From contig NZ_JAHTMW010000029.1 of assembly GCF_026236535.1 (NCBI RefSeq), positions 1-64,000 on the forward strand: a DNA stretch of 64,000 nucleotides, in the 5' to 3' direction. The first letter of the stretch is position 1, and each line of letters opens with the position of its first letter. Both the position numbers and the translations under genes were made by a program. This document shows, in pieces, positions 6,610 to 64,000 of the stretch. A model generated the notes under the pieces. That model was not told the origin of the DNA, did no database searches, and was given only the letters and a program-made list of their open reading frames with translations. The DNA comes from Streptomyces sp. SKN60. GTDB taxonomy: Bacteria > Actinomycetota > Actinomycetes > Streptomycetales > Streptomycetaceae.

Positions 6610-6630
6610 CCGCCACTCAGGATCGAGAGC

Positions 6631-6957
6631 TCAGTAGCGCGGCGCGTTGCGGGACCGCTGCACCCGGGTGGTGCGGCGGTCCTTCGCGTTCCAGCAGGCC
6701 TTGTGCCAGTGCCGGCGGTCGTCGACGCCGCCGTACTCGGGCCAGGCCACCAGGTGCGGGGCGCCCGGGGGGATCTCCTGGTCGCAGCCGGGGCAGCGGT
6801 AGCGCTTGCCCGGCGCGCTGGCGCCGGCGACGTGGCGGACGCACCACTCCTCGCCCTGCCAGGTCTCGGTGCTCTGCACACCGCCGTACCGGTCGCCCTG
6901 CTCGCTCTGCCGGTCGGGCTTCGCGCCGCCTCGGGGGCGGTTGTTCCGCGGGGACAC
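6631..6957 (-). CDS. Small zinc-ribbon-like protein of unknown function
   Basis: A 108-residue basic protein. The N-terminal 30 residues are Arg/Pro/Gly-rich and probably disordered. The C-terminal half has CPGCDQEIPPG followed by HLVAWPEYG and HWHKACW, a Cys/His arrangement that looks like a zinc ribbon and ends in an Arg-rich tail, suggesting nucleic-acid contact. The GTG start at 6957 is chosen because GAGG lies 8 bases upstream; a longer frame exists but lacks such a site. Its 3' end faces the ABC permease (convergent, 21-bp gap). I recognise it only as a conserved Streptomyces hypothetical. Confidence 0.7.
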   Translation of the reverse strand: MSPRNNRPRGGAKPDRQSEQGDRYGGVQSTETWQGEEWCVRHVAGASAPGKRYRCPGCDQEIPPGAPHLVAWPEYGGVDDRRHWHKACWNAKDRRTTRVQRSRNAPRY

Positions 6958-7126
6958 TTCGGCACCTCGCTCGGGCTCGGGGACACGGACGGTTCCGTCC
7001 AGCGTACGGGCCGCGACGGGGTGTCCCGGCACGGGGCCGGGGGCGGATCAACGGAAAATCGCAAGAACTTCCCGCGGGGCCGTTGCCTTTGGCACGTGTC
7101 AGACGTTGTTGCCAGTACGAGGGGAC

Positions 7127-7156
7127 GCGTGGGCGAAGTCCGCGTGGGCGAAGTCC
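7127..7156. repeat. 15-bp tandem duplication upstream of the flavoprotein gene
   Basis: GCGTGGGCGAAGTCC occurs twice without gap at 7127-7141 and 7142-7156, about 40 bp before the start codon at 7196, within the probable 5' leader. Confidence 0.9.
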
Positions 7157-7195
7157 GCGAGGGAGACCGCGCCGGGCCGCGAGGAGGCAGAAGCG

Positions 7196-8230
7196 ATGCG
7201 CGTGGGTACGTTCGTGCTGGCCGCCCAGTTTCCGGGGCAGGGCCAGGGTGAGGCACTGCACCGGGCGGTGCGGACGGCGGAGGTCGCCGAGGAGGCGGGC
7301 CTGGACTCGGTCTGGCTGGCCGAGCACCACTTCGTGCCGTACGGGGTGTGTCCCTCGGCGATCACCCTGGCCGCCCTGCTGCTCGGCCGGACCCGCCGGC
7401 TCCGGGTGGGCACGGCGGTCAGCGTGCTGCCGACCGTCCACCCGGTGGCCCTGGGCGAGCAGGCCGCGATGCTGCACGTGACCTCCGGGGGCAGGTTCAC
7501 CCTCGGGGTGGGACGCGGCGGCCCGTGGATCGACCTGGAGGTGTTCGGCGCGGGACTGCCCGCGTACGAACACGGGTTCCCCGACTCCCTCGACCTGCTG
7601 CTGCGCTGGCTGACCGAGCCGAGCGTGGGCGCCCGGGGCGAGCGGTTCTCCTTCCGCGAGGTGGCGGTCGTGCCGCGCCCCGGCGAGCTGATCGGCGGAC
7701 CGGCCGCCCCCGAGGTGGTGGTCGCCTGCACCTCGCGGAACAGCGTGCGGCTCGCGGCCGAGCGCGGCCTTCCGATGCTGCTCGGCATGCACTGCGGCGA
7801 CGAGGAGAAGGCCGAGATGGTGGCCTGCTGGGAGCGGGCCGCGCGGGAGGCCGGACGCACCCCGGACGAGATCGCGGAGATCGGCGCCGGCCATGTCTCG
7901 GCGGGCGTGGTCCAGCTGGCGGACCGTACGGCGGAGGCCTCGGAGGCCTTGGTGAAGGCGATGCCGGGCTGGCTGAAACAGGGTCTCGACGCTCATGTCA
8001 CGGTGGACGGCAGGTTTCGATCGATGCGGGACCCCGTGGCGTACACCGAGCTGCTGTGCGGGCTTCACCCGGTGGGCAGCCCCCGGCTCGCGGCGGACCG
8101 GCTCGCGGCGACCGCGGAGCGCACGGGCATCACCCGCTTCGCGCTGCTCGCGGAGGGTTCCGGCGATCTGGCCGGCACGGAGGAGAACCTGCGGCGCCTG
8201 GGCTCCGAGGTGCTTCCGCTGCTCGTCTGA
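7196..8230 (+). CDS. Luciferase-like (LLM) flavin-dependent oxidoreductase
   Basis: A 344-residue protein of the bacterial luciferase/F420 monooxygenase superfamily. The TIM-barrel hallmarks are visible: AEEAGLDSVWLAEHHF after strand 1-2, GTAVSVLPTVHPVALGEQ, and RFTLGVGRG. Such enzymes use FMNH2 or F420H2; cofactor and substrate cannot be told here. The ATG at 7196 follows GAGGAGG at the right distance, so a longer upstream frame is not needed. It stands alone between convergent and divergent neighbours. Short tandem repeats flank it on both sides. Confidence 0.88.
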   Translation: MRVGTFVLAAQFPGQGQGEALHRAVRTAEVAEEAGLDSVWLAEHHFVPYGVCPSAITLAALLLGRTRRLRVGTAVSVLPTVHPVALGEQAAMLHVTSGGRFTLGVGRGGPWIDLEVFGAGLPAYEHGFPDSLDLLLRWLTEPSVGARGERFSFREVAVVPRPGELIGGPAAPEVVVACTSRNSVRLAAERGLPMLLGMHCGDEEKAEMVACWERAAREAGRTPDEIAEIGAGHVSAGVVQLADRTAEASEALVKAMPGWLKQGLDAHVTVDGRFRSMRDPVAYTELLCGLHPVGSPRLAADRLAATAERTGITRFALLAEGSGDLAGTEENLRRLGSEVLPLLV

Positions 8231-9024: not shown

Positions 9025-9696
9025 ATGCGTCTCGTCATTGCCCGCTGTTCCGTGGACTACGCGGGCCGGCTCACGGCCCACCTGCCCTCCGCTCCCCGTC
9101 TGATCCTCGTCAAGGCAGACGGCAGCGTCTCGATCCACGCGGACGACCGGGCGTACAAACCGCTCAACTGGATGTCCCCGCCGTGCACCCTCAAGGAGGG
9201 CGTCAACGGCGAGGAGGGCATCTGGACCGTGATCAACAAAGCGGGCGAGAAACTGATCATCACGATGGAGGAGATCCTCCACGACTCCTCGCACGAGCTG
9301 GGCGTCGACCCGGGTCTGATCAAGGACGGCGTGGAGGCGCACCTCCAGGAGCTGCTCGCCGACCGCATCGAGACCCTGGGCGAGGGCTGGACCCTGATCC
9401 GCCGCGAGTACCCGACGGCGATCGGCCCGGTGGACATCCTGTGCCGGGACTCCGACGGCGGCACGGTCGCGGTGGAGCTCAAGCGGCGCGGCGAGATCGA
9501 CGGCGTGGAGCAGCTGACCCGCTATCTGGAGCTGCTGAACCGCGACCCGCACCTGGCGCCGGTGAAGGGCATCTTCGCGGCGCAGGAGATCAAGCCGCAG
9601 GCCCGGGTGCTCGCGAACGACCGCGGCATCGACTGCGTGGTGCTCGACTACGACGCGCTGCGGGGCATCGAGGACGACAAGCTGCGCCTGTTCTGA
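9025..9696 (+). CDS. nucS: EndoMS/NucS mismatch-specific endonuclease
   Basis: A 223-residue protein, the usual length. The N-terminal half is the DNA-binding and dimerisation domain ([16 protein letters not shown]). The C-terminal RecB-like nuclease domain shows [22 protein letters not shown], giving the Asp and Glu-x-Lys metal site, then the QLTRYLELL helix. In actinobacteria, which lack MutS/MutL, NucS cuts both strands at mismatches and drives non-canonical mismatch repair with the beta clamp. The C-terminus (LRLF) resembles the clamp-contacting tail of the family. A bidirectional terminator follows at 9721. Confidence 0.95.
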
Positions 9697-9720
9697 CGCG
9701 CTTCCTGTTGTACGGGTGAG

Positions 9721-9750
9721 GGCCCGGGTGCGAGTGATCGCGCCCGGGCC
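9721..9750. terminator. Bidirectional terminator between nucS and the convergent ATPase gene
   Basis: Arms GGCCCGGGTGCGA (9721-9733) and TCGCGCCCGGGCC (9738-9750) pair with one G-T wobble around a GTGA loop. It lies between two convergent stop codons. Confidence 0.85.
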
Positions 9751-9764
9751 TTCGGCGTATTCCG

Positions 9765-12452
9765 TCAGAGGGTGGGGGCGGTCGAGTTCGTGGAGGCGGA
9801 GTTGCTGGGGCCCTCGGCGGTGCCGGTGGGAGCCGTCGTCGTCGGCGTGGGCGGCGGCGTGGTCGTGGGCGGCGGAGTCGTCGTGGCCGTCGGCGGCGGC
9901 GTCGTGGGCTGCGTCGTCTTCGTCGGCGAGGTCGTCGGCTTCGGCGGCTTCGTCGTCGCTGTCCTGCTCGGCGTCGGGCTGCCCGTCGCCGTCGGCGAGC
10001 CGGTCGGCGTCGGCGAGGTGCCGGCGGTGCCGGTCGCGCCCGGGCTCGGGGTGCCGGTCGCGGTCGGGGACGCCGGGTCGGCGGGGCTCGTTGTCGCGTC
10101 CTCGGTGGGCTCGGCGTCGTCGCCGCCGCCGTCGTCGAGGCCGGCGTCCTGGGTCGCGGTGCTGTCGGAGGTGACCGTGCCGGTGCCCGGGTCGTCGGCG
10201 TCGCCGGAGGTGAGGCCGAGGGTGACCACGGTGCCGAGGACGGCGACGAGTACGGCGCCCGCGCCGACGGCGGCGAGATTGCGGCGGGCCCCGGTGAGGA
10301 GGCCCTTGCGCAGGCCGCCGCCCTTGGCGGGCTCGCGGTCGTCGGGCGGGCCGACGACGACGGTCGCGGGCTCGTCGGTGAACGACGCGAAGGCGTCCAG
10401 GGAGGCCGAGGAGCCGGCCATGGGGCGCGCCGGGGCCGGCGAGGCGAGGTCCGGGAAGGCGGGCTTCACGGGCAGCGGGGCGGCCGCGGGTATGCCGCGC
10501 GGCGGCGAGGCGGGGCCCTCGCGGCGCGGCAGCGGCGCGGTGCGGGCGGTCGGCCCGGCGGACTTCCCGCCCGGCTGACCGGCCGGCCGGCCGCCCTGCT
10601 GTCCGGTCGGCTGTCCGATCGACGGTCCGATCGAGGGTCCGGTCTTCGGCAGGGGCGTGGTCTTCGCGAACGAGGCCGGCTCGGGCTCGGCGTCCACCGG
10701 GGCGGCCTGGCCGGTGAGGTCGGCGACCAGGGCGAGGGCGCGGCGGCCGGCGACGGTGCCGCGCTTGTCGGCGAGGGCGCCGCGCATGCCGATGGAGGCC
10801 TCCAGCTCGGCGCGGGCCCGCTGGAGACTGCCGCGGCAGAGCGCGAGGACGCCCAACTCGTGGTGGAACCAGGCCTCTTCGGCGACCTCGCCGGCCTGGC
10901 GGGCGGCGCCCTGGCCGCCGCGCAGGGCCCGCTCCCAGGCGCTCCAGTGCAGGCCCGCGGCGAAGGCGGGGGCGGCGGCGCGGGCGAGCAGGACGGCGGT
11001 GGCCGGGTGTTCGGGGGCGGTGCCCGGGGACAGCGCGGCAAGGGCGGCGAGCAGCGAGTCGGCCTCGGCGGTCGCGCGCTCGGGGGTGACCGAGGGGTGG
11101 CCGGCCCACCAGGCGTAGTGCTGGGCGACGGCGTGGGCGCGGCCGAGCGGGTCGGGCTCGTAGTTCTGGGCGACCAGCTGGGTGAGGACGCCGGCGGCGA
11201 GGCGGTAGCGGGTGCCGACCGGGGAGAGCAGTCCGCAGGCCATGAGTTCGCCGACGGCGGCGTCGGCGTGGGTGTCGCCGACGAGCGCGGGCAGATGGGC
11301 CTGGTGCGGGACCTCGCCGCCGAGGGCGACGGCGAGCCGCAGGGTGTCCTGGGCGGCGCGGCTGAGCCGGGAGGCGAGCAGCACGGCGGGGGCGGCGCCC
11401 TCGCCGAGGCTCGGCAGCGGCACCTCGCGCAGTTCGACGTCGGGGTCGTCGACGCCGGCGGCCGGAGCCGGAGCCTGGGCGGTGCTGCCGTTGGTGCCGC
11501 CGCCGGGGTTGCCGAAGGCCTCCTCCAGGGCACCGAAGGCGTCGAACTCGGCGGGGCCGACGCGCAGCCGGTCGCGCTGCCGGAGCAGGGCGCCCGCCTG
11601 GACGAAGCGGAGCGGCAGGCCCTCGGACTCGAACCAGAGGTCGCCGGCCCAGTTGACCTCGTCGTCGGTGAGGGCGCGGCCGGTGGCGTGCTCCAGGAGC
11701 TCGACGGCGGCGGCGCGGGCGAGTCCGGTCAGGGCGACCTCTTCGAGGCCGGCCTCGGCCGAGGGCGCGGCTGTGTCCGGGGTGGCGCCGAAGAGGAAGG
11801 CGCAGTCGGGGGTGGCGGCGAGCAGTTCGTCGAGGGCGGCGCCGCCGAACTCCAGGTCGTCGACGACGACGATGGCGCCGATGCGGCGGACCTCCAGGAG
11901 GAGTTCCTCGCGGTCGGGCCGGAAGCCGGGGGCGTACTGGACGGCGTGGAAGAGCTCGTACAGGAGGTCGGTGGGCGTGCGGTGGTGGCCGGAGAGCCGG
12001 ACGACGCCGTCGGGGGCGACCTTGCCGCACTCGGCGGCGACCGCGTCGAGGAGCCGGGTGCGGCCGGAGCCGGCGGGGCCGGTGAGCCGGGCGGAGCGGC
12101 CCCGGGTGAGGTGCTGTACGAGGGTGTCGCGCTGCTCGTCGCGTTCGAGCAGCGGCAGGGCGGGCGCCGCGGGGCCCGGCGGTACGGGCGGGGCGGCGGC
12201 GCGGGCGGCCTCGGCGCGCTCCGGCGCGGTCCTGCGCCGCGGTGCCTTCGGCTGATCCGCGGGCGGACACACCTCGATCTCGCTGCCGTCGAGCGGGTTG
12301 ACGGTGAGCAGGAGGCCGCCGGAGACCAGCCGGGCGGTGCGCACGCGGGCGGGGGCGGTGGACACGGGGGCGGGTGCGGCGGGGCCGGGGCGCACGTCCT
12401 CGCCCTCGGCGGCGTGACCGTATTCCTCGGGTCCCCGGTTGATCGGGTCCAT
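9765..12452 (-). CDS. Large membrane-anchored AAA/STAND-like ATPase with Thr/Pro-rich outer tail
   Basis: An 895-residue protein. Residues 1-125 are mostly disordered with a short conserved patch (LLLTVNPLDGSEIEVCPP). An ATPase domain follows with LTGPAGSGRTRLL as P-loop and IGAIVVVDDLEFGG as Walker B, then helical repeats to about residue 620. One transmembrane helix (LAAVGAGAVLVAVLGTVVTLG) near residue 755 leads to an outside tail of about 120 residues dominated by Thr, Pro and Ser. The P-loop lysine is replaced by arginine. The ATG at 12452 has GGGAG nearby. The architecture suggests an inward signalling ATPase with a wall-spanning tail; the role is not established. Confidence 0.72.
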   Translation of the reverse strand: MDPINRGPEEYGHAAEGEDVRPGPAAPAPVSTAPARVRTARLVSGGLLLTVNPLDGSEIEVCPPADQPKAPRRRTAPERAEAARAAAPPVPPGPAAPALPLLERDEQRDTLVQHLTRGRSARLTGPAGSGRTRLLDAVAAECGKVAPDGVVRLSGHHRTPTDLLYELFHAVQYAPGFRPDREELLLEVRRIGAIVVVDDLEFGGAALDELLAATPDCAFLFGATPDTAAPSAEAGLEEVALTGLARAAAVELLEHATGRALTDDEVNWAGDLWFESEGLPLRFVQAGALLRQRDRLRVGPAEFDAFGALEEAFGNPGGGTNGSTAQAPAPAAGVDDPDVELREVPLPSLGEGAAPAVLLASRLSRAAQDTLRLAVALGGEVPHQAHLPALVGDTHADAAVGELMACGLLSPVGTRYRLAAGVLTQLVAQNYEPDPLGRAHAVAQHYAWWAGHPSVTPERATAEADSLLAALAALSPGTAPEHPATAVLLARAAAPAFAAGLHWSAWERALRGGQGAARQAGEVAEEAWFHHELGVLALCRGSLQRARAELEASIGMRGALADKRGTVAGRRALALVADLTGQAAPVDAEPEPASFAKTTPLPKTGPSIGPSIGQPTGQQGGRPAGQPGGKSAGPTARTAPLPRREGPASPPRGIPAAAPLPVKPAFPDLASPAPARPMAGSSASLDAFASFTDEPATVVVGPPDDREPAKGGGLRKGLLTGARRNLAAVGAGAVLVAVLGTVVTLGLTSGDADDPGTGTVTSDSTATQDAGLDDGGGDDAEPTEDATTSPADPASPTATGTPSPGATGTAGTSPTPTGSPTATGSPTPSRTATTKPPKPTTSPTKTTQPTTPPPTATTTPPPTTTPPPTPTTTAPTGTAEGPSNSASTNSTAPTL

Positions 12453-53145: not shown

Positions 53146-53601
53146 TCAGCCCAGCCGGAGTTCCTGTTGGGCGTGGGCCACGCGGAAGAGGGCCTCCGCG
53201 ATGGTGGTGGATTCGTCGTCGGTGAGGTGGCGGGAGAAGTGTTCCCAGATGCCGGCCATGTAGGCGGGGGCCGTGGCGTGGATGGCGGCGCGGCCGGCTT
53301 CGGTGATGGTGGCCCAGGTGACGCGTTTGTCCGTGGGGTCCGGGCGCTTGGTGACCAGGCCTGATCGGGCCATCTCGTCGACCAGGCGACTGACGCGGGT
53401 GCGGCTGAGGACGACCCGTTCGGCTACCTCCTGCATGCGCAGGCCCTGGTCGCCGCCGCTCCTGACTTCCAGGAGGACGTCGTACCAGGTCAGCGGGATG
53501 GTGCCATTGCGCGCCACATCACTCTCGATGGCGCGCACGGCGGCGCTGTGGGCGAGAAGCAGGGCTCGCCAGGCCTCGAGTCGGTGCTCACCTTCGTTCA
53601 C
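53146..53601 (-). CDS. MarR-family regulator
   Basis: A 151-residue winged-helix protein. The recognition region is MQEVAERVVLSRTRVSRLVD followed by the wing GLVTKRPDPTDKRVTWATIT. The GTG start at 53601 has a TANNNT-type box (TACACT on the minus strand, complement of 53609-53614) 7 bases upstream and no ribosome binding site, so likely leaderless. It is divergent from a rhodanese gene, with two near-identical direct repeats between them. MarR proteins with such partners often sense oxidants, sulfur species or phenolics; the ligand here is unknown. Confidence 0.88.
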   Translation of the reverse strand: MNEGEHRLEAWRALLLAHSAAVRAIESDVARNGTIPLTWYDVLLEVRSGGDQGLRMQEVAERVVLSRTRVSRLVDEMARSGLVTKRPDPTDKRVTWATITEAGRAAIHATAPAYMAGIWEHFSRHLTDDESTTIAEALFRVAHAQQELRLG

Positions 53602-53626
53602 AGGGACGAGTGTAACGGGACTTGCG

Positions 53627-53671
53627 TGCGTGCGCACGCATTGATTAATGTGTGTGCGGACGCACTGATTA
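53627..53671. promoter_or_regulatory. Tandem operator-like repeats between marR and rhodanese genes
   Basis: Two 21-bp copies, 53627-53647 and 53651-53671, match at 18 positions; each has a TGYGTGCG..CGCA half followed by TGATTA. The first also contains the palindrome TGCGTGCGCACGCA. They start 24 bp apart. They probably bind the MarR protein and control both directions. Confidence 0.65.
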
Positions 53672-53695
53672 GCCACTCATGCTGGAGGCACGGAC

Positions 53696-54025
53696 ATGGT
53701 CCAGAAGATCACCCGCGACGAGCTGCAGAAGAAGATCGACGAGGGCCTGGTGACGGTCGTCGAGGCGCTGCCGCTGTCGTACTACGCCGACAAGCACCTC
53801 CCCGGCGCCCTCAACCTGCCGCTCGACCAGGTGGACGAGCTGTCCCCGACCCTGCTCCCGAACAAGGACGCGGCGATCGTCACCTACTGCGCCGACGGCC
53901 CCTGCCCCAACTCGGGCATCGCCGCCGAGCGTCTGGTGGAGCTCGGCTACACCGACGTGCGCGAGTACTACGAGGGCAAGGCCGACTGGGTCGAGGCCGG
54001 CCTGCCGACCGAGTCCGGCGCCTGA
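53696..54025 (+). CDS. Single-domain rhodanese-like protein
   Basis: A 109-residue rhodanese domain. The active loop is YCADGPCPNSG with cysteine nucleophile candidate at the first Cys, and LPGALNLPLDQV is the conserved CH2A-like motif. It would carry sulfane sulfur as a persulfide. GGAGG precedes the ATG. The YceI gene follows 48 bp downstream in the same direction, and both are probably under the divergent MarR. Confidence 0.9.
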   Translation: MVQKITRDELQKKIDEGLVTVVEALPLSYYADKHLPGALNLPLDQVDELSPTLLPNKDAAIVTYCADGPCPNSGIAAERLVELGYTDVREYYEGKADWVEAGLPTESGA

Positions 54026-54073: not shown

Positions 54074-54643
54074 ATGACCACTTCCCCGACTCGTACCGTC
54101 GACGGCGTGGAGCTGCCCGCCGTCGGCACCTGGAAGATCGACCCGGGCCACGCCGAGGTCGGCTTCCTCGGTCGCCACTTCATGCTGACCAAGGTCCGCG
54201 GCCGGTTCACCGGCGTCGACGCCACCATCGAGATCGGCGAGCGGCCCGAGGACAGCAAGGTCACCGCCGTCATCGACATGGCGAGCGTGGACAGCGGCGA
54301 CCAGACCCGCGACGACCACCTGCGCTCGGGCGACTTCTTCGACGTGGAGAAGTTCCCGAAGGCCACCTTCACCTCCACCCGGGTGACCTGGGACGGCAAG
54401 CGCGGCACCCTCAGTGGCGACCTCACCATCAAGGACGTCACCAAGCCGGTGACCCTGGAGGTCGACTACCTCGGGCACGCCCGCGACCCGTGGGGCAACG
54501 ACCGTACGGTCTTCTCCGCCCACGGCAAGGTCAACCGCGAGGACTGGGGCCTGACCTGGAACATGGTCCTGGACTCCGGCGGCATCCTCGTCTCCAAGGA
54601 GATCGAGCTGTCCCTGGAGCTCGAGGCGATCAAGGAGAACTGA
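54074..54643 (+). CDS. YceI-family lipid-binding-like protein
   Basis: A 189-residue beta-barrel protein of the YceI family. Motifs are GTWKIDPGHAEVGFLGRHFM, VRGRFTGVDATIEIG and GTLSGDLTIKDVTKPVTLEV. YceI proteins bind long polyprenoid-like ligands; this one lacks a signal peptide and is cytoplasmic. It is operonic with the rhodanese gene. A bidirectional terminator follows. Confidence 0.92.
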   Translation: MTTSPTRTVDGVELPAVGTWKIDPGHAEVGFLGRHFMLTKVRGRFTGVDATIEIGERPEDSKVTAVIDMASVDSGDQTRDDHLRSGDFFDVEKFPKATFTSTRVTWDGKRGTLSGDLTIKDVTKPVTLEVDYLGHARDPWGNDRTVFSAHGKVNREDWGLTWNMVLDSGGILVSKEIELSLELEAIKEN

Positions 54644-54719: not shown

Positions 54720-55331
54720 TCAGGCGCCGGTGATCCGGGCCACCAGGGCGAGCAGCGTGCCCCGGATCCGGTCGCCGTCGAACTCGCCCTCCCGCAGCGC
54801 GTGCTGGAGGTCCGAGTCCAGGGGCGCGAGGAGCAGATGCGCGCCACAGTCGGCGTCGAGATCCGGACAAGCCTCGCGGAGCAGAATGGTCAGGTGCACG
54901 CGCCAGAAGGCGTACGAACCTATCTGGTAGCGCGCGCCCGGCGCGGCCGTCTCCGACAGCCGTACCAGCTCCAGGTTCTCGTCCAGAAGGTCCAGGTAGG
55001 CGCCGAAGAAGGCGGTGATGCGCGCCGCCGCCGGAGCGCCCGGGCCGAGCGGTGGCGGGCCGTGCAGGATGCGCTCCTGAAGGCGGCTGTCCTGCGCGTC
55101 GAGCAGGGCGGCGGCCAGCCCTGCCTTGCTGCCGAACCTGCGGAAGAGCGTGCCCTTGCCGACGCCGGCCGCGGCGGCGATGGCGTCCATGGACACGTTC
55201 GCCACACCGCGCCGGTCGAAGAGTTTCTGGGCGGCGGCAAGGATCCGCAGCCGGTTGCGCGCGGCGTCCGAGCGCTCGGCCGGCGGCTCGTGCAGGGCGC
55301 AGGGCAAGGGCGCGGGCGAGAGGTTCTGCAC
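54720..55331 (-). CDS. TetR-family regulator divergent from the nitroimidazole-type operon
   Basis: A 203-residue TetR protein. The DNA-binding part is RLRILAAAQKLFDRRGVANV, then AAAAGVGKGTLFRRFGSKAG. The C-terminal ligand domain is helical with an acidic stretch DLDADCGAH. The GTG at 55331 has GAGG 7 bases upstream and gives the usual length; the frame is open for another 140 codons upstream but reads low-complexity sequence from a tandem repeat. It faces the operon that begins at 55972 across 640 bp and is the best candidate for its regulator. Confidence 0.88.
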   Translation of the reverse strand: MQNLSPAPLPCALHEPPAERSDAARNRLRILAAAQKLFDRRGVANVSMDAIAAAAGVGKGTLFRRFGSKAGLAAALLDAQDSRLQERILHGPPPLGPGAPAAARITAFFGAYLDLLDENLELVRLSETAAPGARYQIGSYAFWRVHLTILLREACPDLDADCGAHLLLAPLDSDLQHALREGEFDGDRIRGTLLALVARITGA

Positions 55332-55445
55332 GCGGGGCCTCGGTTCTTTCTCCGTGGGGATGGCGGAGCGGGGGCGGCGTACGTGCAGTGTACGGGGAAT
55401 GGTCCAGGCCGGACCGTCGCGGCGCCGTGACCCGAGCACGGAGCA

Positions 55446-55971: not shown

Positions 55972-57138
55972 ATGACCGTGCACGCCGACACCTTCCTGGA
56001 CCTGACCCAGCACGAGATCCAGGCGCTCCGCACCGAGTTCAACCTCGCCGACGCCCACACCCACCAGCGCCAGTCCGCCTCCCAGCACGGGATCGTCGAG
56101 CGGCTGCCGCAGCTGTGGTACGAGGCCGAGGAAGGCCTCCAGGCCACCTACGAACAGCGTTTCACCGAGGCCTTCTTCCGCCTCCACCGCCAGCCCACCG
56201 CACTGGAGAAGAACAAGACGCTGCTGTCCTACGCGGCGTCCATCTCCACCATGGTCGTGGCGATGTACCTCAAGCGGCAGCGCATGGCCGTGACCCTGGT
56301 CGAGCCCTGCTTCGACAACCTGCACGACGTGCTGTCGAACATGGGCGTGCCGCTCTACCCCATCGACGAGTCCGCGCTGCACGACGTCGACCGCATCTAC
56401 ACCGAGCTCAAGCGCCGGGTCCGCACCGACGCGCTCTTCCTCGTCGACCCCAACAACCCCACCGGCTTCAGCCTGATGTCGCACGGCCGCCGGGGCCTGG
56501 AGGAGGTCGTCCGGTACTGCAAGGACCACGACAAGCTCCTGGTCATCGACTTCTGCTTCGCGTCCTTCACGCTGTACGACGAGGAGCTCGCCCGCTTCGA
56601 CGTGTACGAGCTCCTGGAGAACTCCGGCGTCCGCTACCTGGTCATCGAGGACACCGGCAAGACCTGGCCCGTGCAGGACGCCAAGGCCGCGATGCTCACC
56701 GCCAGCGACGACATCAAGGAGGACGTGTACAACCTGCACACCAGCGTCCTGCTCAACGTCTCGCCCTTCGTCCTCAACATGCTGGCCGAGTACATAGAGA
56801 ACTCGGCCAAGGACGGCATGGCCTCGGTCCGCGACCTCCTCGACGTCAACCGGGCCGCGGTCAAGGAGGCCCTGGCCGGCACGATCCTGGAGTACCAGGA
56901 GCCGATCGCCAAGACCAGCGTGGCCTGGGCGAAGATCCGGCACCCCGAGCTGACCGCGACCGAGCTGCAGCGCGAACTGCGCGGCGAGGGCGTGTACGTG
57001 CTGCCCGGCCGCTTCTTCTTCTGGAACGAGCCCGGCAAGGGCGAGCCCTACATCCGGATGGCCCTGGCCCGCGAGCCGGAGATGTTCGCCGGGGCGATGA
57101 AGCGCCTGCGGGAGGTGCTGGACCGCTATGCCGGCTGA
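55972..57138 (+). CDS. rohP: RohP-like PLP-dependent arginine oxidase/hydroxylase
   Basis: A 388-residue fold-I aminotransferase-like protein. PLP contacts are in [20 protein letters not shown], and Lys230 in [10 protein letters not shown] forms the Schiff base. In azomycin synthesis RohP (as MppP in enduracididine synthesis) uses O2 and PLP to turn L-arginine into 4-hydroxy-2-ketoarginine. The assignment rests on the fold plus the adjacent RohR- and RohS-type genes. The ATG at 55972 has GGAGGA 6 bases upstream; a longer open frame upstream reads the regulatory region. Its end overlaps the next gene by 11 bp. Confidence 0.83.
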
Positions 57139-57685
57139 CACGACCAGCACGACACCCCTCGACGACGCCGAGCCGTTCATCGACGCCGATCTCTTCCTCG
57201 GCATGAACAGCGCCGACGACGACGTCCGCATCGCCTGCAAGGCGTTCTTCGTCGAACGGCTCGGCGGGCGGGTGACGATGAGCCTGGAGCAGGTGGGTCG
57301 CTGCGACGACGTCATCTGGGGCTACTCGCGCGAACTCCAGGACCTCTACTACCCGTTCATGGACCACCTCCACACGGTCATGGACATCAGCCGGGAGGGG
57401 TACGAGCCCGCCGACGCGCAGCTCGCCCTCGCCGAGGACTCCGGCCTGCCCGCACGGCTGCCGTTCACCGACCGGCTGCTGCTCGCCCAGGTGATCCATC
57501 GCAAGGGCCTGCTCCACACGGCGGGCCCGCGCCTGGGCGCCTTCGGAGGGCTTCCGGTCCGCACGGTGGCCGCCCGGCCGGCCGGCGCGCCGGAGCCCTC
57601 CTTCCCCGAGCCGCTGGAGCGGCTCTACCGCACGTCGCTGGCCCTGCGCCTGCCCCTTCCCCCGTCCCTGCCCGAGGGAGCGTGA
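57128..57685 (+). CDS. Small protein in the RohQ position, function inferred
   Basis: A 185-residue protein opening with a polar stretch and then [40 protein letters not shown] and [14 protein letters not shown]. Acidic residues in FIDADLF and the RCDD turn look like a metal- or substrate-binding face; I do not recognise the fold from the sequence alone. In the azomycin pathway a separate protein, RohQ, closes guanidinoacetaldehyde to 2-aminoimidazole, and by gene order this is the candidate. It starts inside rohP and ends one base before the rohR start, so all are coupled. Confidence 0.6.
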
Positions 57686-57686
57686 G

Positions 57687-58484
57687 ATGTTCCAGGGAGT
57701 GATCGCGGCCCTGGTGACGCCGCTCTCGGAGACCGGAGAGGTCTCCGAGAGCGGGGTCGCCCGGCTGCTGGACAGCATCCGTCCGCACGTCGACGCCCTG
57801 CTGCCCAACCTCAGCACCGGCGAGGGCCGGTGGCTGACCGACCGCCAGTGGGAGGCCATGCTCACGGCGACCGTGAAGCACGCGGGTGGCCTGCCCGTCC
57901 TCGCCGGCGTGCTGCGCCCCACCACGGACCAGGTCCTGGAGCGGGCCCGGGTCGCCGCCGACCTCGGCGCGCACGGGCTCGTCAGCACCACCCCGTACGG
58001 CTCCGGCGTCACCCAGGACCAGATCCACCGGCACTTCGCCGAGCTCGACGCCCGCGCCGGGCTCCCGGTCGTCGCGTACCACGGCACCGAAGTCGCCGAC
58101 AACTGCGCCGACTTCGAGACGCTGCTGCGCATCTGCGAGCTGCCGTCGATCGTGGGCGTCAAGGACTCCTCCGGCAGCTCCGCCTTCACCCGGCGGCTCG
58201 TCGAGGCCGCGCCCGGCGCCCGCGTCTACGCCGGTCTCGAACACCTGCTGCTCGAGTCCGGGGCCGTCGACGGGTACGTGGTGGCGCTCGCCAACCTCGA
58301 ACCGGCGCTGTGCGCCGACCTGTTCGCCGGCCGGCTCGACGACCCGGCCGTGCGGCTGACCGAGGCCGTGGAGCGGTACGGCCTGGAGGAGGACGACTGG
58401 TACGTACGGGTCAAGACCGCGCTGTACGAGCGCAGCGTGCTGGAGACGGACCGGACCGTGGACACGGGAGAGGTCGGGGGATGA
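57687..58484 (+). CDS. rohR: RohR-like retro-aldolase, DHDPS/NAL family
   Basis: A 265-residue TIM-barrel class I aldolase. It opens MFQGVIAALVTPLSETGEVS, carries NLSTGEGRW in place of the usual GTTGE loop, a tyrosine in VVAYHG, and the Schiff-base Lys159 in IVGVKDSSGS. In the azomycin pathway RohR splits 4-hydroxy-2-ketoarginine to guanidinoacetaldehyde and pyruvate, the reverse of pyruvate aldol addition done by DHDPS. It is shorter than lysine-pathway DHDPS (about 295). Its stop overlaps the rohS start (ATGA). Confidence 0.82.
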   Translation: MFQGVIAALVTPLSETGEVSESGVARLLDSIRPHVDALLPNLSTGEGRWLTDRQWEAMLTATVKHAGGLPVLAGVLRPTTDQVLERARVAADLGAHGLVSTTPYGSGVTQDQIHRHFAELDARAGLPVVAYHGTEVADNCADFETLLRICELPSIVGVKDSSGSSAFTRRLVEAAPGARVYAGLEHLLLESGAVDGYVVALANLEPALCADLFAGRLDDPAVRLTEAVERYGLEEDDWYVRVKTALYERSVLETDRTVDTGEVGG

Positions 58485-59398
58485 AGGCAGCCACCACGAC
58501 GACGACAGACCGTGTGCCCGGCCCCCGCCCCGGCGGGGCCGACACCGACGCCAACGCCGACGCCAACGCCGAATCGGCGCACCGCGAGCTGTTCCGGCTC
58601 AACCGCTCCCGTCTCGACTCCCGGCTGCTCGCCCGGGTCGAGGAGATCGAGAAGGGCTGGATCCTGCCGCTGATCGACTCGGTCGAGGCGACCGGCGAGC
58701 CGGTGCCCGACCGGGCCGCCTGGCAGCGGCTGCTCGACGGGCTGCTCGCCGAGGAGCGCGAGCCGAGCCCGGCCGGCACGTATCTGGCCGACGAGGCGAG
58801 CCGCGAGGAATTCACGCTGGTGGTGCGGGAGTTCGCGCTCGACGGGCTGACCGAGGCGCAGAACTTCTTCCCCGCCGTGCCCCGGCTGCCGATCAAGTCG
58901 CAGATGGCGGTGATGCGGGTCCTCATCGACGAGTTCGGCTGCGGAAACCTCCAGCAGGCGCACTCCCAGCTCTATCGGCTGCTCCTGGCCGAGCTGGGTC
59001 TGCCGACCGAGCCGGAGCACTTCGTCGACACCACCGCGGACGAGACCTTCCAGTTCCTGAACGTCTTCTACTGGCTCACCCAGCGCGCCCCGCACGTCGA
59101 GTACTTCCTGGGCGCGCTCGCCTATCTGGAGGCCTCCATCCCGGACGCCTTCACCTACCAGGCGCGGGCCTGCGAGCGGCTCGGCATCGCGCACGGCCGC
59201 TACTACACCGAGCACCTGCACATCGACACCTTCCACATGCAGGAGATGCAGCTGGCCATCAAGGAGTACGAGGCGGCGCACGGCCTCGATCCGGCGCGGC
59301 TGTGGACGGGTGCCCGGCTGCTCTCCGGGCTGATCGGCGGCGCCTTCGACGCGGCCGTGGCCCGTGCGCGGGAGCTGGCCGGCGGGGCGGTGGCATGA
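58481..59398 (+). CDS. rohS: RohS-like heme-oxygenase-fold diiron N-oxygenase
   Basis: A 305-residue protein of the heme-oxygenase-like diiron oxidase family. After 30 disordered residues comes an all-helical domain. Candidate iron ligands are Glu125 (LTEAQ), Glu151 (IDEFGCG), His161, then His245, Asp249 and His252 in EHLHIDTFHMQE. The spacings 26, 10, 84, 4 and 3 nearly equal those of the diiron N-oxygenase SznF (26, 10, 86, 4, 3). In S. cattleya RohS oxidises 2-aminoimidazole to 2-nitroimidazole. It overlaps rohR and the next gene by 4 bp each. Confidence 0.85.
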   Translation: MKAATTTTTDRVPGPRPGGADTDANADANAESAHRELFRLNRSRLDSRLLARVEEIEKGWILPLIDSVEATGEPVPDRAAWQRLLDGLLAEEREPSPAGTYLADEASREEFTLVVREFALDGLTEAQNFFPAVPRLPIKSQMAVMRVLIDEFGCGNLQQAHSQLYRLLLAELGLPTEPEHFVDTTADETFQFLNVFYWLTQRAPHVEYFLGALAYLEASIPDAFTYQARACERLGIAHGRYYTEHLHIDTFHMQEMQLAIKEYEAAHGLDPARLWTGARLLSGLIGGAFDAAVARARELAGGAVA

Positions 59399-60732
59399 GC
59401 GCGCCCGATGAGAACAGGGCCCCCGAGCCCACCCCCGCACCGCCCCGCGAGCCCGTCCTCGAAGAGCTCCCCGGCGACCGGCTCCGGGTCCGCGTCGCCG
59501 GGCAGGAGTTCGTCGTCGGCGCCTCCTGCCCGCACCGCAAGGGCCGGCTCGTGCACGGTTACGTCAACCCGCGGACGCTGCGGATCAGCTGCCCGCTGCA
59601 CCACAGCGCCTTCGACCTGGCCACCGGCTGCCCGGCCGGCGGCCCGACCGAGGATCCGCTGCCGGTGTACCGGGCGGGCGTCTGGCCCGGCTACTACCGG
59701 GCCGAGGAGGTCTGGCTGCCCGCCTCGGAGCAACTGCTCGACTGGGGCGAGGAGTTCCACGAGCTGATGCTCGGCGACGACCTGCGCATGGCGGCCTTCA
59801 AGTCCGCCGTGACCGAGGCCGTACGCCCCGGGGACACCGTCCTCGACCTGGGCACCGGCACCGGCATCCTGGCCCTGTGGGCCTTGGAGGCCGGGGCCGC
59901 CAAGGTCTACGGCATCGACCTCAACGAGAAGGTCCTCGACGCGGCGGTCGAGCGGCTCGACGCGGCCGGCTTCGCCGACCGGTTCGAGCCACTCCTCGGC
60001 CTCTCCTTCGACCTGGAGCTGCCCGAGCGGGTCGACATCGTCGTCTCCGAGATCATGGGGAACCTCGCCGACAACGAGAACTTCTCCGCCATCCTCGACG
60101 ACGCCCGCGAACGGTTCCTGCGCCCCGGCGGCCTCATGCTGCCGCGGGTCGTCGACAGCTTCCTGGTGCCGGTGGCCGCCGAGGAGGCGCACGCGCAGCT
60201 GACCGGCGAGGGGCCGCGGGACGCGGGCGGGCCGGAGGCGTTCGCCGCCCTGCTCGCGGCGCGCGGCGCGAAGGACCCGTGCGCGCTGTACTACGACGTG
60301 ATCCTGCCGGTCGCCGGGCATCTCGCCTCGCCCCGGCTGGTCCGCCGCTACGAGCCCGAGCGGCCGGAGGCCGCCCCGACCTCGTACGACGTGCCGCTGG
60401 TCTACACGGTGCAGCGGGACGGCGTGCTCACCGGCTTCAAGGGGTACTTCGCCGCCCGGCTCTCCGAGACCGTCTCGCTGGACATCTCCGGCGACGACAT
60501 CGCGGGCCGCACCACCTCCGACAGCTGGAAGCACTGCTACCTGCCGATCGAGCGGCCGGTACGGGTGCGGCGCGGCGACCGGATCGCGATGACCCTGGCC
60601 CGGGCGGCGGGCCGCGACGGCAGCCCCTTCGGCCAGACGTACACGTGGAAGGGGCGGGTCCTCTCCGGCACCCGGGTGGTGGCCGAATTCGATCACAGCA
60701 CCGGGACCGTCGAAACCGCCCCGTCCGACTAG
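59395..60732 (+). CDS. Fusion of a Rieske [2Fe-2S] domain and a PRMT-like methyltransferase
   Basis: A 445-residue two-domain protein. Residues 1-115 form a Rieske ferredoxin-like domain with Cys45-x-His47 and Cys66-x2-His69. The rest is a class I SAM methyltransferase of the protein-arginine-methyltransferase type: VLDLGTGTGILALW (motif I), GIDLN (acidic ribose contact), and the double-E loop with Glu219 (SEIMG) and Glu228 (DNENF), nine residues apart as in PRMT1. The THW loop is changed to DSWKH. A beta-barrel follows. It may methylate a guanidine or cyclic guanidine while the Rieske domain passes electrons, perhaps to RohS. Translation is coupled to rohS. Confidence 0.8.
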   Translation: MSAPDENRAPEPTPAPPREPVLEELPGDRLRVRVAGQEFVVGASCPHRKGRLVHGYVNPRTLRISCPLHHSAFDLATGCPAGGPTEDPLPVYRAGVWPGYYRAEEVWLPASEQLLDWGEEFHELMLGDDLRMAAFKSAVTEAVRPGDTVLDLGTGTGILALWALEAGAAKVYGIDLNEKVLDAAVERLDAAGFADRFEPLLGLSFDLELPERVDIVVSEIMGNLADNENFSAILDDARERFLRPGGLMLPRVVDSFLVPVAAEEAHAQLTGEGPRDAGGPEAFAALLAARGAKDPCALYYDVILPVAGHLASPRLVRRYEPERPEAAPTSYDVPLVYTVQRDGVLTGFKGYFAARLSETVSLDISGDDIAGRTTSDSWKHCYLPIERPVRVRRGDRIAMTLARAAGRDGSPFGQTYTWKGRVLSGTRVVAEFDHSTGTVETAPSD

Positions 60733-60776
60733 TCGTCCAGCACAACAACCAATCACCACGGGGGAGTTCACCAAGG

Positions 60777-63700
60777 ATGACGATCAGCACAGGAAGCACC
60801 TCTCAGGGCGCGACGGAGCGGCACCCGGACGGGCGGCCGGTCCGTACGTACGACGTCGTGGCCCTCAACGTCCCGATCGCGTACAACGCCTTCGGCGACC
60901 ACGACCGCAACGGCGCGCTCTACACGCTCGCCTCGGACGCGCCGGAGCTGCGGGAGCTCGCGGCCTCCTGGCCGCAGCCGTTCCCCAGCTATCTGGAGCA
61001 CCCCGAGCTGGTGCCCGGTCCGCACCCGCTCGCCCGCCCGCTGGTCCTGCGGGTCCGGCGCGGCGAGCGGCTGCGGGTGCGGCTGACCAACGAGCTCTCG
61101 CGGCGGGTCGGCATCACCCTGCAGGGCGTGCGGTACGACGTGCGCACGACGGACGGCCTGGCGGCGGGCGCGAACCCGGACACGAGCGTGGCGCCGGGCG
61201 ACACCCGGGTGTACGAGTGGCTGTGCGAGCACGAGGGCGTGTTCCACTTCGGCGACATGTCCGACGCGCGGGGCGAGGGCTCGCAGAGCCACGGCATGGT
61301 CGGCGCGGTGGTGGTCGAGGCGCCGGAGGCGACCTGGACCGACCCGGAGACGGGCGGGCCGCTGGCCACCGGCCTGTACGCGGACGTGCACCTCCCGGAC
61401 CGCAGCTTCCGCGAGTTCGTGGTCTTCATGATGGAGTACCCGAGCAACGACAACCCGGTGACGCCGCCGCCGATGCCGGGGCACGGAGGCGGGCACGGCG
61501 GGCACGACGGCGGGAGCGGCGAGGGCGGGCACGAGGGGCACGCACTGGCCGCCGAGGTCGGCGCCGGCGCCGACGCCTCCGCTCCGGGCTTCGAGAACGG
61601 CATCTACCGCCCCTCCGCCACCGGCGCCCCGGCGCTCCGCCCCGGCACCTCCGACACCATCGACGACCTCACCCCGCTCAACAACGCGATGCTGCCGGTC
61701 AACCACCGCATCGAGCCGATGGAGTGGCGGATGTACCGCTACCACCGGCTCCTGGAGCAGGGGAAGATCGACCCGGTCCGCGACGCCATGATCGGCGAGG
61801 AGATGCACCACAGCTCCTGGCTGTTCGGCGACCCGGCGACGCCCGTACTGCGCGGCTACTCCGGCGACCCGACCGTGATCCGCCTGGTCCACGGCGGCAT
61901 GCGCGACACCCATGTCTTCCACACCCACCTGCACCAGTGGCGGGTGCGCGCGGAGGACGAGAACGCGCCGATCGTCGACTCGGTCAGCATCGGCCCGCAG
62001 GAGGCCATGACCCTCGAACTCATCGGCGGTCTCGGGTCGAAGCAGGGCGCGGTCGGCGACTCGATCTGGCACTGCCACATGTACGTCCACTTCCACATGG
62101 GCATGTGGGGCCTGTTCCGGATCTTCGACACCCTCCAGGACGGCACCGGTCACTACCCCGACGGGCGGCCCGTGCAGGCGCTCGTACCGCTCCCCCATCG
62201 TGCGGCGCCGCCGGAGCCGACGCCCGAGCGGCCCGGCTTCCCCGGCTTCATCACCCAGTCGGCGACCTTCCCGCAGAAGAACCCGCGGCCGCCGCGGACC
62301 CCGCTGCAGCCGCCGGGCATGGGCCGGGAGCCCACTCCTCTGGAGCTCGCCGCGTTCGTGGACGACCCGCAGCCCGGCGAGGCGTTCACGAAGATCGGGC
62401 CGGGGGACGCGCCCGTACGCCGCTTCCACCTGGTCGTCACCAACGGCACGCTCTACTACCACGGGGACCCGACCGACGAGCACGCCACGACCTGGCACGA
62501 CCACAACGCCCACTTCTACGTCCTTGCCGAGGAGATCGAGGAGGCCGGCGGCCTGGAGGAGTTCAAGCGGCAACTGGCGGCGGGCGAGCGCACGTTGGAG
62601 CCGCTGGTCATCCGGGCCAACAAGGGCGAGGTCCTGGAACTCACCCTCACCAACGCCCTGCCGCCCGGCCCGCAGAAGGAGTCGGCGTTCGACGCGCCGC
62701 TGCCCTTCCAGCCCGAACTCGGCCTGCACACCCACCTGGTGAAGTACGACCCGCTGGTCTCCGACGGCTCGGCGGTGGGCTGGAACTACCTGTCCGCGAC
62801 CACGACCGCCGACCAGGGCGAGGAGGCGTTCGGGCAGTACAACTCGTGGACGTACCGCTGGTACGTGGACGAGGAGTTCGGCACCGTCCTCTTCCACGAC
62901 CATCTGCTCGCCAACTACCGCCAGCGGCACGGTCTGTTCGGCGCGCTGATGGCCGAGCCGGAGGGCGCGACCTGGGTGTCGCCGGAGGATCACGGCAAGG
63001 AGCTGCGGCGCGGTACGCAGGCGGTCGTCAAGCTCGCCGACGGCACGTCGCACCGCGAACTGGTCCTGGCCATCGGCGACTTCGTGCCGATGGTGCGGCA
63101 CGGGCACGGCGACCACGGCGGGCCGATCAATCCGCCGCCGGCCCCCGGCGCGCCCGACGACCAGGGCGTGATGGGCGTCAACTACCGCAGCGAGCCGCTG
63201 TCCGAGCGGGGCGGGGACCCGGCGCACTGGTTCTCCAGCGCCGAACACGGCGACCCGGGCACGCCGCTGCTTCGCGGCTACCCCGGCGAGGACCTGCGCG
63301 TGCACGTCGTGCAGGGCTCGCACGACCTCCAGCACAGTTTCACGATCTCCGGGGCACGCTGGCGGGAGTGGGCGGGCCGGGAGGACACCGCCTGGCGCAA
63401 CCAGCAGACCTTCGGCATCTCGAACGTCGCCCAGATGCGGCTCGCCCCGACGCTGAGCGCCGGCGACCACCTGTGGTCGTTCAGCGCGGGCAACGACCTG
63501 TGGCTGGGCTGCTGGGGTCTGCTGCGGCTGCACGAGCGCCCGCAGGCGGACCTGCCGCCGCTGCTGAGCCCGGGGCACCCGGCGCCGGTGCCGGCACCGG
63601 TGCCGCTTCCGCCGCGCCGCCGGGTGCGACGGCACACCGTACGGGCCCGTTCCCAGGTCATCGAGTACAGCCCGCTGCGCACCGACCCGTACGGGCTCGT

Positions 63701-64000
63701 GTTCAGCGCCGAGGGGGACGGCGGCCCGGAGGAGGGCCCGCTGGTGCTGCGCTGCCGGGCCGGCGAGTGGGTGGAGGTCACCCTGGTGAACGAACTGGAC
63801 GGGCCGCCGCCCGCCAGCCCGCTGGACCCGCGGCTGATGAACGAGGCCGACCCGGGAGCCCGTACGGTCTCCGGCCGGGTCTCGCTGCACCCCACCCTGC
63901 TCGACTTCGACGTGCGGACGGACGACGGCGCGCACGTCGGCCGCAACTCCGACTCGACGGTGAAGCCGGGATCCTCGCGGACCTACCGCTGGTTCGCCGG
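60777..64000 (+). CDS. Very large multicopper oxidase, MnxG-like (3' end outside window)
   Basis: At least 1,074 residues are open to the window end, far more than the about 500 of normal multicopper oxidases. Cupredoxin repeats carry HVFHTHLHQW (about residue 380), the type 1 copper motif HCHMYVHFHMGMWG (about 430), TTWHDHNAHF, LGLHTHL and HDHLLANYRQRHGLFG. A His/Gly-rich loop GHGGGHGGHDGG lies near residue 235. There is no signal peptide, so it may act in the cytoplasm. MnxG-type oxidases oxidise Mn or organic substrates. It begins 44 bp after the fusion gene and is likely in the same operon. Confidence 0.82.
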   Translation, partial: MTISTGSTSQGATERHPDGRPVRTYDVVALNVPIAYNAFGDHDRNGALYTLASDAPELRELAASWPQPFPSYLEHPELVPGPHPLARPLVLRVRRGERLRVRLTNELSRRVGITLQGVRYDVRTTDGLAAGANPDTSVAPGDTRVYEWLCEHEGVFHFGDMSDARGEGSQSHGMVGAVVVEAPEATWTDPETGGPLATGLYADVHLPDRSFREFVVFMMEYPSNDNPVTPPPMPGHGGGHGGHDGGSGEGGHEGHALAAEVGAGADASAPGFENGIYRPSATGAPALRPGTSDTIDDLTPLNNAMLPVNHRIEPMEWRMYRYHRLLEQGKIDPVRDAMIGEEMHHSSWLFGDPATPVLRGYSGDPTVIRLVHGGMRDTHVFHTHLHQWRVRAEDENAPIVDSVSIGPQEAMTLELIGGLGSKQGAVGDSIWHCHMYVHFHMGMWGLFRIFDTLQDGTGHYPDGRPVQALVPLPHRAAPPEPTPERPGFPGFITQSATFPQKNPRPPRTPLQPPGMGREPTPLELAAFVDDPQPGEAFTKIGPGDAPVRRFHLVVTNGTLYYHGDPTDEHATTWHDHNAHFYVLAEEIEEAGGLEEFKRQLAAGERTLEPLVIRANKGEVLELTLTNALPPGPQKESAFDAPLPFQPELGLHTHLVKYDPLVSDGSAVGWNYLSATTTADQGEEAFGQYNSWTYRWYVDEEFGTVLFHDHLLANYRQRHGLFGALMAEPEGATWVSPEDHGKELRRGTQAVVKLADGTSHRELVLAIGDFVPMVRHGHGDHGGPINPPPAPGAPDDQGVMGVNYRSEPLSERGGDPAHWFSSAEHGDPGTPLLRGYPGEDLRVHVVQGSHDLQHSFTISGARWREWAGREDTAWRNQQTFGISNVAQMRLAPTLSAGDHLWSFSAGNDLWLGCWGLLRLHERPQADLPPLLSPGHPAPVPAPVPLPPRRRVRRHTVRARSQVIEYSPLRTDPYGLVFSAEGDGGPEEGPLVLRCRAGEWVEVTLVNELDGPPPASPLDPRLMNEADPGARTVSGRVSLHPTLLDFDVRTDDGAHVGRNSDSTVKPGSSRTYRWFA

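Follow-up and report, generated by a model that had tools for sequence, protein, structure and literature searches.

Azomycin-type (roh) gene clusters of two types, one carrying a PRMT-like methyltransferase and often an MnxG-family oxidase

What does a bacterium make when its azomycin-type (roh) operon runs on into a methyltransferase and a giant copper oxidase? The question was raised by Streptomyces sp. SKN60, in which such an operon starts at position 55972 of the stretch analyzed here (bases 1-64000 of the 92,668-base contig NZ_JAHTMW010000029.1 in a genome of 7.87 Mb; hereafter, the window). The nitroimidazole drugs have azomycin as their parent compound. The comparison of roh loci described below separated them into two types, and the window belonged to the one with the methyltransferase (type A). 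Within the literature searched, both the division of roh clusters into two types and the type A extension of the known azomycin cluster look new. Among the top papers listed, none dealt with the methyltransferase or the oxidase of roh clusters, and the words methyltransferase, Rieske and copper were absent from the main text of two azomycin papers, one of them PMC12713392; the primary azomycin papers may already note these genes.

The operon genes in the window all lay on the plus strand. The first one, rohP (55972..57138), encodes a protein of 388 amino acids (aa), predicted to be an O2- and pyridoxal phosphate (PLP)-dependent arginine oxidase/hydroxylase, which matched the PDB entry 6c3a with 673 bits and MppP with 220 bits. 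We take 6c3a, named only 'uncharacterized protein' in the PDB file, to be RohP of Streptomyces cattleya. The RohP of locus L049 (genome G005) included 379 aligned residues of 6c3a, none of which was changed, and this locus was thus regarded as the S. cattleya cluster. Adjoining rohP in the same order as in L049 were rohQ (57128..57685; 185 aa, a cyclodehydratase by position; Pfam DUF6190, E 2e-61), rohR (57687..58484; 265 aa, a DHDPS-family retro-aldolase; Pfam DHDPS, E 1e-26) and rohS (58481..59398; 305 aa, a heme-oxygenase-like diiron N-oxygenase). RohS matched 9pfw (E 1.5e-56) and 9pfx (E 4e-56), the latter being 'PbrRohS', a solved RohS, and also SznF (E 3e-11). The identities to the L049 counterparts were 76% for RohP (by tblastn), 64% for RohQ, 55% for RohR, 64% for RohS, 65% for the methyltransferase and 74% for the oxidase.

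The functional residues were also retained. The EDTGKTWP motif of RohP, the Lys of which is presumably the PLP lysine, was present in 31/31 aligned loci, and RohR conserved the catalytic Tyr and Lys of the DHDPS family, assumed here to play the same roles in it, in 31/31. The diiron-ligand positions of RohS (E125, E151, H161, H245, D249 and H252; numbering starts with the ATG at 58481) were conserved in 30/30 loci; the pattern of E, E, H and HxxxDxxH presumably has the spacing of that in SznF. All five open reading frames (ORFs) listed in a preliminary description of this region, namely those of a PLP enzyme, a 185-aa protein, a DHDPS aldolase, a diiron protein and a fusion protein, were confirmed, and its naming of the first four as the RohP/Q/R/S set was upheld by the above scores and identities, including those of the PLP enzyme and the aldolase. 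These sequence comparisons supported the view that the window operon holds a complete azomycin-type set at the gene level. According to the available text of PMC10724926, RohP, RohR and RohQ convert arginine into 2-aminoimidazole, which RohS then oxidizes to azomycin.

The genes were closely packed, with an 11-bp overlap between rohP and rohQ, a 1-bp gap between rohQ and rohR, and ATGA overlaps at the joints of rohR with rohS and of rohS with the next gene (59395..60732), which encodes a 445-aa Rieske-methyltransferase fusion. The preliminary claim that all joints overlap or abut was correct up to this point, but a 44-bp gap separated the fusion gene from that of the 1288-aa MnxG-family multicopper oxidase (60777..64643). 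As had been described, the operon ran on into the fusion gene and the giant oxidase gene, which starts inside the window and passes its edge at 64000. The oxidase stop codon formed an ATGA overlap with a DsbA-like gene beyond the edge (window-equivalent 64640-65374; 9141-9875 in the stretch L004). The GC content at third codon positions was 0.93-0.98 in each of the ORFs of RohP, RohQ, RohR, RohS, the fusion and the oxidase. Because the homology of the genes was strong and the gene order was repeated in 54 loci, chance was excluded.

The preliminary description counted two extra enzymes in this operon. This holds for the methyltransferase and the copper oxidase, whereas the Rieske half of the fusion is very probably the known RohT, as discussed below. 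The additions were not special to the strain, as the S. cattleya cluster (L049) carried both, with the genes for RohP, RohQ, RohR, RohS, the Rieske protein, the methyltransferase, the oxidase and DsbA in the same order as in the window; the Rieske protein and the methyltransferase are encoded by two genes there, in contrast to the single protein of the window. The rohPQRST clusters of S. eurocidicus and Pseudomonas, in the available text of PMC12713392, likewise have the five core genes in one operon, but they are described as five genes, to which the window operon adds the methyltransferase and the oxidase.

The compared set of 54 distinct loci consisted of the window, ten named contigs, twenty stretches from one genome search and 23 from another, and all 54 RohP rows were mutually different. 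A locus at a contig end with only rohP, rohQ and rohR (L015) was left out, and four copies of L036, L037, L038 and L044 were removed. Also excluded were nine genomes (L025-L033) in which the RohP-like match had an identity of 33-44%; tblastn found neither rohQ nor rohR in the 1.5 kb on either side of these matches. A RohP identity of 70% to that of the window served as the dividing line between the two types, and gene presence was counted within the stretches read, with Rieske matches accepted at E 1e-3 or better. This division gave 26 type A and 28 type B loci, and the RohP tree set type A apart with a support of 99/96. The tree was midpoint-rooted for drawing only and did not resolve how the branches within type A are ordered.

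The methyltransferase was found in 25/26 type A loci, the MnxG-family oxidase in 17/26 and a module of MarR, rhodanese and YceI genes in 25/26, while none of the three was found in the 28 type B loci. The module count was the sum of 24 type A stretches and the window, which was read separately since the stretch L004 began too late. Genes occurring in both types were those for the Rieske protein (25/26 in type A and 28/28 in type B, or 53/54 loci), RohQ (24/26 and 28/28), RohS (25/26 and 28/28), DsbA (22/26 and 26/28) and TetR relatives (12/26 and 19/28, the window's own copy lying outside the counted stretch). The DsbA gene was located downstream in most type A loci and upstream of rohP in type B. 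Among the four type A loci without DsbA, the stretch stops inside the oxidase gene in L036 and L040, and the gene seems to have been lost in L050 and L052. L050 also had an in-frame TGA in the methyltransferase gene and no oxidase gene. L052 (genome G165; 4907-7366 in the oriented stretch) retained only rohP, rohQ and rohR, without rohS, Rieske and methyltransferase genes, and was followed by transposase-like and fragment ORFs. We read it as a decayed roh remnant, which might still yield 2-aminoimidazole, though no azomycin, or might be nonfunctional.

Four genomes contained two roh clusters, in each case one of type A and one of type B (L047/L063 in G379, L048/L062 in G242, L120/L130 in G998 and L112/L125 in G1013). 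With about half of the loci in each type, this pairing favors a changed product of type A, although it is suggestive only. G1013 shares its genus with the window genome, and its roh stretch is identical to that of Streptomyces sp. Root431. In S. griseocarneus (L039, 11146-11187) and Streptomyces sp. UNOC14_S4 (L040, 3981-4028), rohP was followed directly by rohR with no room for rohQ; ring closure may be spontaneous in these loci or be carried out by another enzyme.

The fusion protein of the window comprised a Rieske domain at approximately residues 20-95 (Pfam Rieske, E 8e-9) and a PRMT-like methyltransferase at approximately residues 100-445 (Pfam PRMT5_C, E 6e-9). The cluster-binding motif CxH...CxxH was represented by CPHRKG and CPLHHS, and CPH and CPLH were present in all 30 Rieske sequences inspected. 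As a Rieske ORF followed rohS in roh loci of both types, the Rieske half is very probably RohT, the product of the fifth gene of the published rohPQRST cluster (PMC12713392, available text). The type B protein was small and stand-alone in the 13 loci whose ORFs were read. In type A, the Rieske protein and the methyltransferase were separate in 11 loci and in one stop-free reading frame in 14. The fused forms made up two clades, one of 8 loci (support 100/100) and one of 6 (99/95), possibly the outcome of one or two fusion events, and their presence in two supported clades argues that the two parts work together. We infer that RohT is the electron donor to the diiron center of RohS; the RohS assays in the available text of PMC10724926 were run with phenazine methosulfate and NADH.

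The closest solved relatives of the methyltransferase were chains of protein arginine methyltransferases (PRMTs), with PRMT4.2 the best (E 6e-22), and a fold search with a structure model of moderate quality placed PRMT6 and CARM1 first (E of about 1e-21, TM-score to target of about 0.6-0.7, 20-25% identity). The enzyme shares its fold, the S-adenosylmethionine (SAM) motif, the double-E loop and the tryptophan in the THW loop with PRMT6, PRMT4 and PRMT1, provided that the PRMT motif names are rightly applied to it, as we assume. It differs from the PRMTs in this low identity, in its fusion to a Rieske domain and in its place in a small-molecule operon. The SAM motif was kept, and E219 and E228 of the double-E loop were invariant in 10 sequences; they are nine residues apart, presumably as in PRMT1. 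The THW-loop site reads SDSWKH, in which the W and K of what we take to be THWKQ in PRMT1 are kept.

The distribution of this methyltransferase agreed with that of type A RohP. It was detected in 7 of the 394 family genomes, all seven with type A RohP. In a 394-genome class sample, which overlaps the family sample in genomes, it was found only in the window's own genome, along with one partial match of 44% in another context (G119). The pairwise distances of the methyltransferase followed those of RohP (r=0.97, 13 loci), as did those of RohR, RohS and the oxidase. The ratio of nonsynonymous to synonymous substitution rates was 0.15-0.33 in six pairs, showing that the methyltransferase is under purifying selection. 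The G119 relative was not counted as a roh gene because its neighbor reads as a YcaO-like gene. It is encoded on the minus strand of L086 as a PRMT-like protein with an additional N-terminal region, beside this apparent peptide-maturation gene, and may represent a further role for PRMT folds in gene clusters for natural products. A 253-aa 'hypothetical protein' on the Pseudomonas aeruginosa plasmid NZ_OP378668.1 (L045, 8965-9726) was 47% identical to methyltransferase residues 197-437. It lay in the vicinity of mer and conjugation genes, and the annotation around it listed no roh genes.

Arginine, the intermediates of the azomycin pathway and 2-aminoimidazole are all guanidines. In the streptozotocin pathway, the available text of PMC11705231 describes SznE, an arginine-guanidino methyltransferase, as paired with SznF, a heme-oxygenase-like diiron oxygenase. 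The likeness of the window's enzymes to this pairing suggests that a guanidine methyltransferase step would fit the roh pathway, with SznE being likened to the roh methyltransferase by description only. Unlike RohS, SznF carries an additional cupin domain and gives rise to an N-nitrosourea.

The alignment of the oxidase with MnxG of Bacillus PL-12 (PDB 9bxa, E 2.9e-212) consisted of four stretches that lay within residues 22-1285, and the two proteins are of similar size (1288 vs 1227 residues). The motifs presumed to bind the type 1 and trinuclear copper centers were kept, including HCHxxxHxxxxM and HxH; the first two were present in 15/15 aligned roh loci and the last two in 14/14 loci reaching them. 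Where the oxidase was present in type A, the order was methyltransferase, oxidase and DsbA, with DsbA lying elsewhere in L043. Unlike MnxG, the window oxidase stands in an antibiotic operon without partner genes beside it: no MnxE or MnxF gene was found in the window operon, where the 44-bp gap before the oxidase and the 4-bp overlap after it leave no room for one; copies at other sites of the genome were not looked for, and the protein was not classed as a manganese oxidase. Inspection of the oxidase start showed no hydrophobic signal stretch.

In-frame searches for the oxidase in 70 genomes, which were chosen and not randomly drawn, found it in five, namely in four type A clusters and as a stand-alone gene in G364 (L087). 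G364 is a type B genome, and its oxidase gene lies on a contig other than that of its roh cluster, apparently between an ammonium transporter gene and arginine biosynthesis genes. Further relatives were present on Pseudonocardia plasmids, in which tblastn found no RohP. One of them, a 1256-aa protein on the plasmid pBCI2-1 (L073, 7989-11759; 53%), lies behind a SARP regulator and is without the copper motifs that the aligned roh oxidases keep.

A scheme can be proposed for the type A operon, to which we assign a probability of about 45% as a whole. Homology and gene order support its core, in which RohP, RohR and RohQ convert arginine into 2-aminoimidazole, RohS oxidizes this to 2-nitroimidazole, and a Rieske protein (RohT) is present; RohT would pass electrons to the diiron center. 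The PRMT-like enzyme, fused with RohT in the window strain, would act alongside RohS; by means of its double-glutamate guanidine clamp it may N-methylate either the cyclic guanidine 2-aminoimidazole or azomycin itself, leading to a 1-methyl-2-nitroimidazole-type product. The methylation was placed at 2-aminoimidazole or azomycin because the fusion partner is the presumed partner of RohS. The MnxG-type oxidase, optional within type A, might act in a copper-dependent oxidation at a later step or in protection of the cell. For the DsbA-like protein and for the MarR/rhodanese/YceI module, redox protection and sensing are guessed roles. It is proposed more tentatively that type A clusters, including that of S. 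cattleya, go past azomycin to an N-methylated and possibly further oxidized nitroimidazole, using a PRMT-like enzyme that was recruited for methylation of a cyclic guanidine and is tethered to the N-oxygenase electron donor and an MnxG-type oxidase with a biosynthetic role.

Several observations weigh against the scheme. The structure model of the methyltransferase was moderate (mean pLDDT 63.5, pTM 0.58), and two type A loci had no rohQ. The oxidase was missing from 9/26 type A loci, one of which was the decayed L052, and is thus not essential for a product common to all type A clusters. In addition, the presumed relatives of S. eurocidicus at L039-L041 have type A clusters, S. olivoreticuli and S. 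griseocarneus among them. S. eurocidicus makes azomycin and its cluster is described as rohPQRST in the available text of PMC12713392, and the strain JCK-8368, near S. eurocidicus by 16S, is also an azomycin producer according to that of PMC12511057. If S. eurocidicus has a type A cluster, methylation would not be obligatory and some azomycin would leave the cell unmethylated.

The last point leads to the view that the product is plain azomycin, left unchanged by the methyltransferase, oxidase, DsbA and YceI proteins, which would serve self-protection or regulation. Both the type A clusters in the sequenced presumed relatives (L039 and L041) of known azomycin producers, the S. eurocidicus group, and the dispensability of the oxidase (present in 17/26 type A loci) agree with this view. 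We nevertheless regard it as doubtful, as the methyltransferase retains the SAM and double-E motifs under purifying selection, its fusion to the presumed electron donor of RohS is easier to reconcile with a role in the pathway than in regulation, and the four double-cluster genomes have one cluster of each type. Methylation might instead come first, on free L-arginine as with SznE, and RohP, RohR, RohQ and RohS would then process N-methylarginine into a methylated nitroimidazole. The PRMT fold and double-E loop of the methyltransferase, the relationship of RohS with SznF and the partnership of the arginine-guanidino methyltransferase SznE with such a diiron enzyme (PMC11705231, available text) are in line with this order. 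The methyltransferase is, however, fused to the Rieske protein beside the last enzyme RohS and not to RohP, and RohP, RohQ and RohR are common to type B, in which the stretches read contain no methyltransferase, with no special methylarginine enzymes evident; methylation of arginine is therefore considered rather unlikely.

The oxidase could also be a manganese oxidase that acts independently and stands beside roh by chance, given that MnxG, a manganese oxidase, is its nearest relative of solved structure and that homologues occur away from roh in G364 and on the Pseudonocardia plasmids. This appears improbable in view of its place in type A loci after the methyltransferase and before DsbA (except in L043), its ATGA overlap into the DsbA gene in the window, and its finding inside type A clusters in four of the five positive genomes among the 70 chosen. 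The missing signal stretch also speaks against it, as does the lack of room for MnxE and MnxF, both of which Mnx requires (PMC5622069, available text). As for the core enzymes, the top NCBIfam model for the PLP enzyme was MppP with 199 bits, raising the idea that the set serves an enduracididine-type or other arginine pathway in place of azomycin. The MppP identity was rejected on scores, since 199 bits is well under the curated cut-off of 450 and the match to 6c3a far exceeded that to MppP, and RohQ, RohR, RohS and the Rieske protein follow as in L049; such a pathway is extremely improbable here.

The surroundings of the operon in the window were also annotated. Upstream, the type A module consisted of a MarR-family regulator gene (53146..53676, minus strand; Pfam MarR_2, E 5e-14; 77% to the L044 gene), a gene for a small rhodanese-domain protein (53696..54025, plus strand; Pfam Rhodanese, E 2e-12; 78% to L044) and a YceI-family gene (54074..54643, plus strand; Pfam YceI, E 3e-51; 92% to L044). 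Between the module and rohP was a TetR-family regulator gene with an uncertain start codon (54720..55340, minus strand; Pfam TetR_N, E 1.5e-16; 79% to L042). Genes for an M4 peptidase, a phosphopantetheinyl transferase, Ku and LigD were located further downstream and look like ordinary neighbors of the operon.

With the methyltransferase and, frequently, the giant copper oxidase added to the azomycin set, a bacterium with a type A cluster may make a modified azomycin. Should roh clusters clearly divide into plain ones and ones with a guanidine methyltransferase of their own, this would indicate unrecognized natural nitroimidazoles and, if the proposed scheme is true, a PRMT-like enzyme and an MnxG-like oxidase acting on small molecules. 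The split bears directly on S. cattleya, from which the characterized RohP comes according to the available text of a review (PMC7497351).

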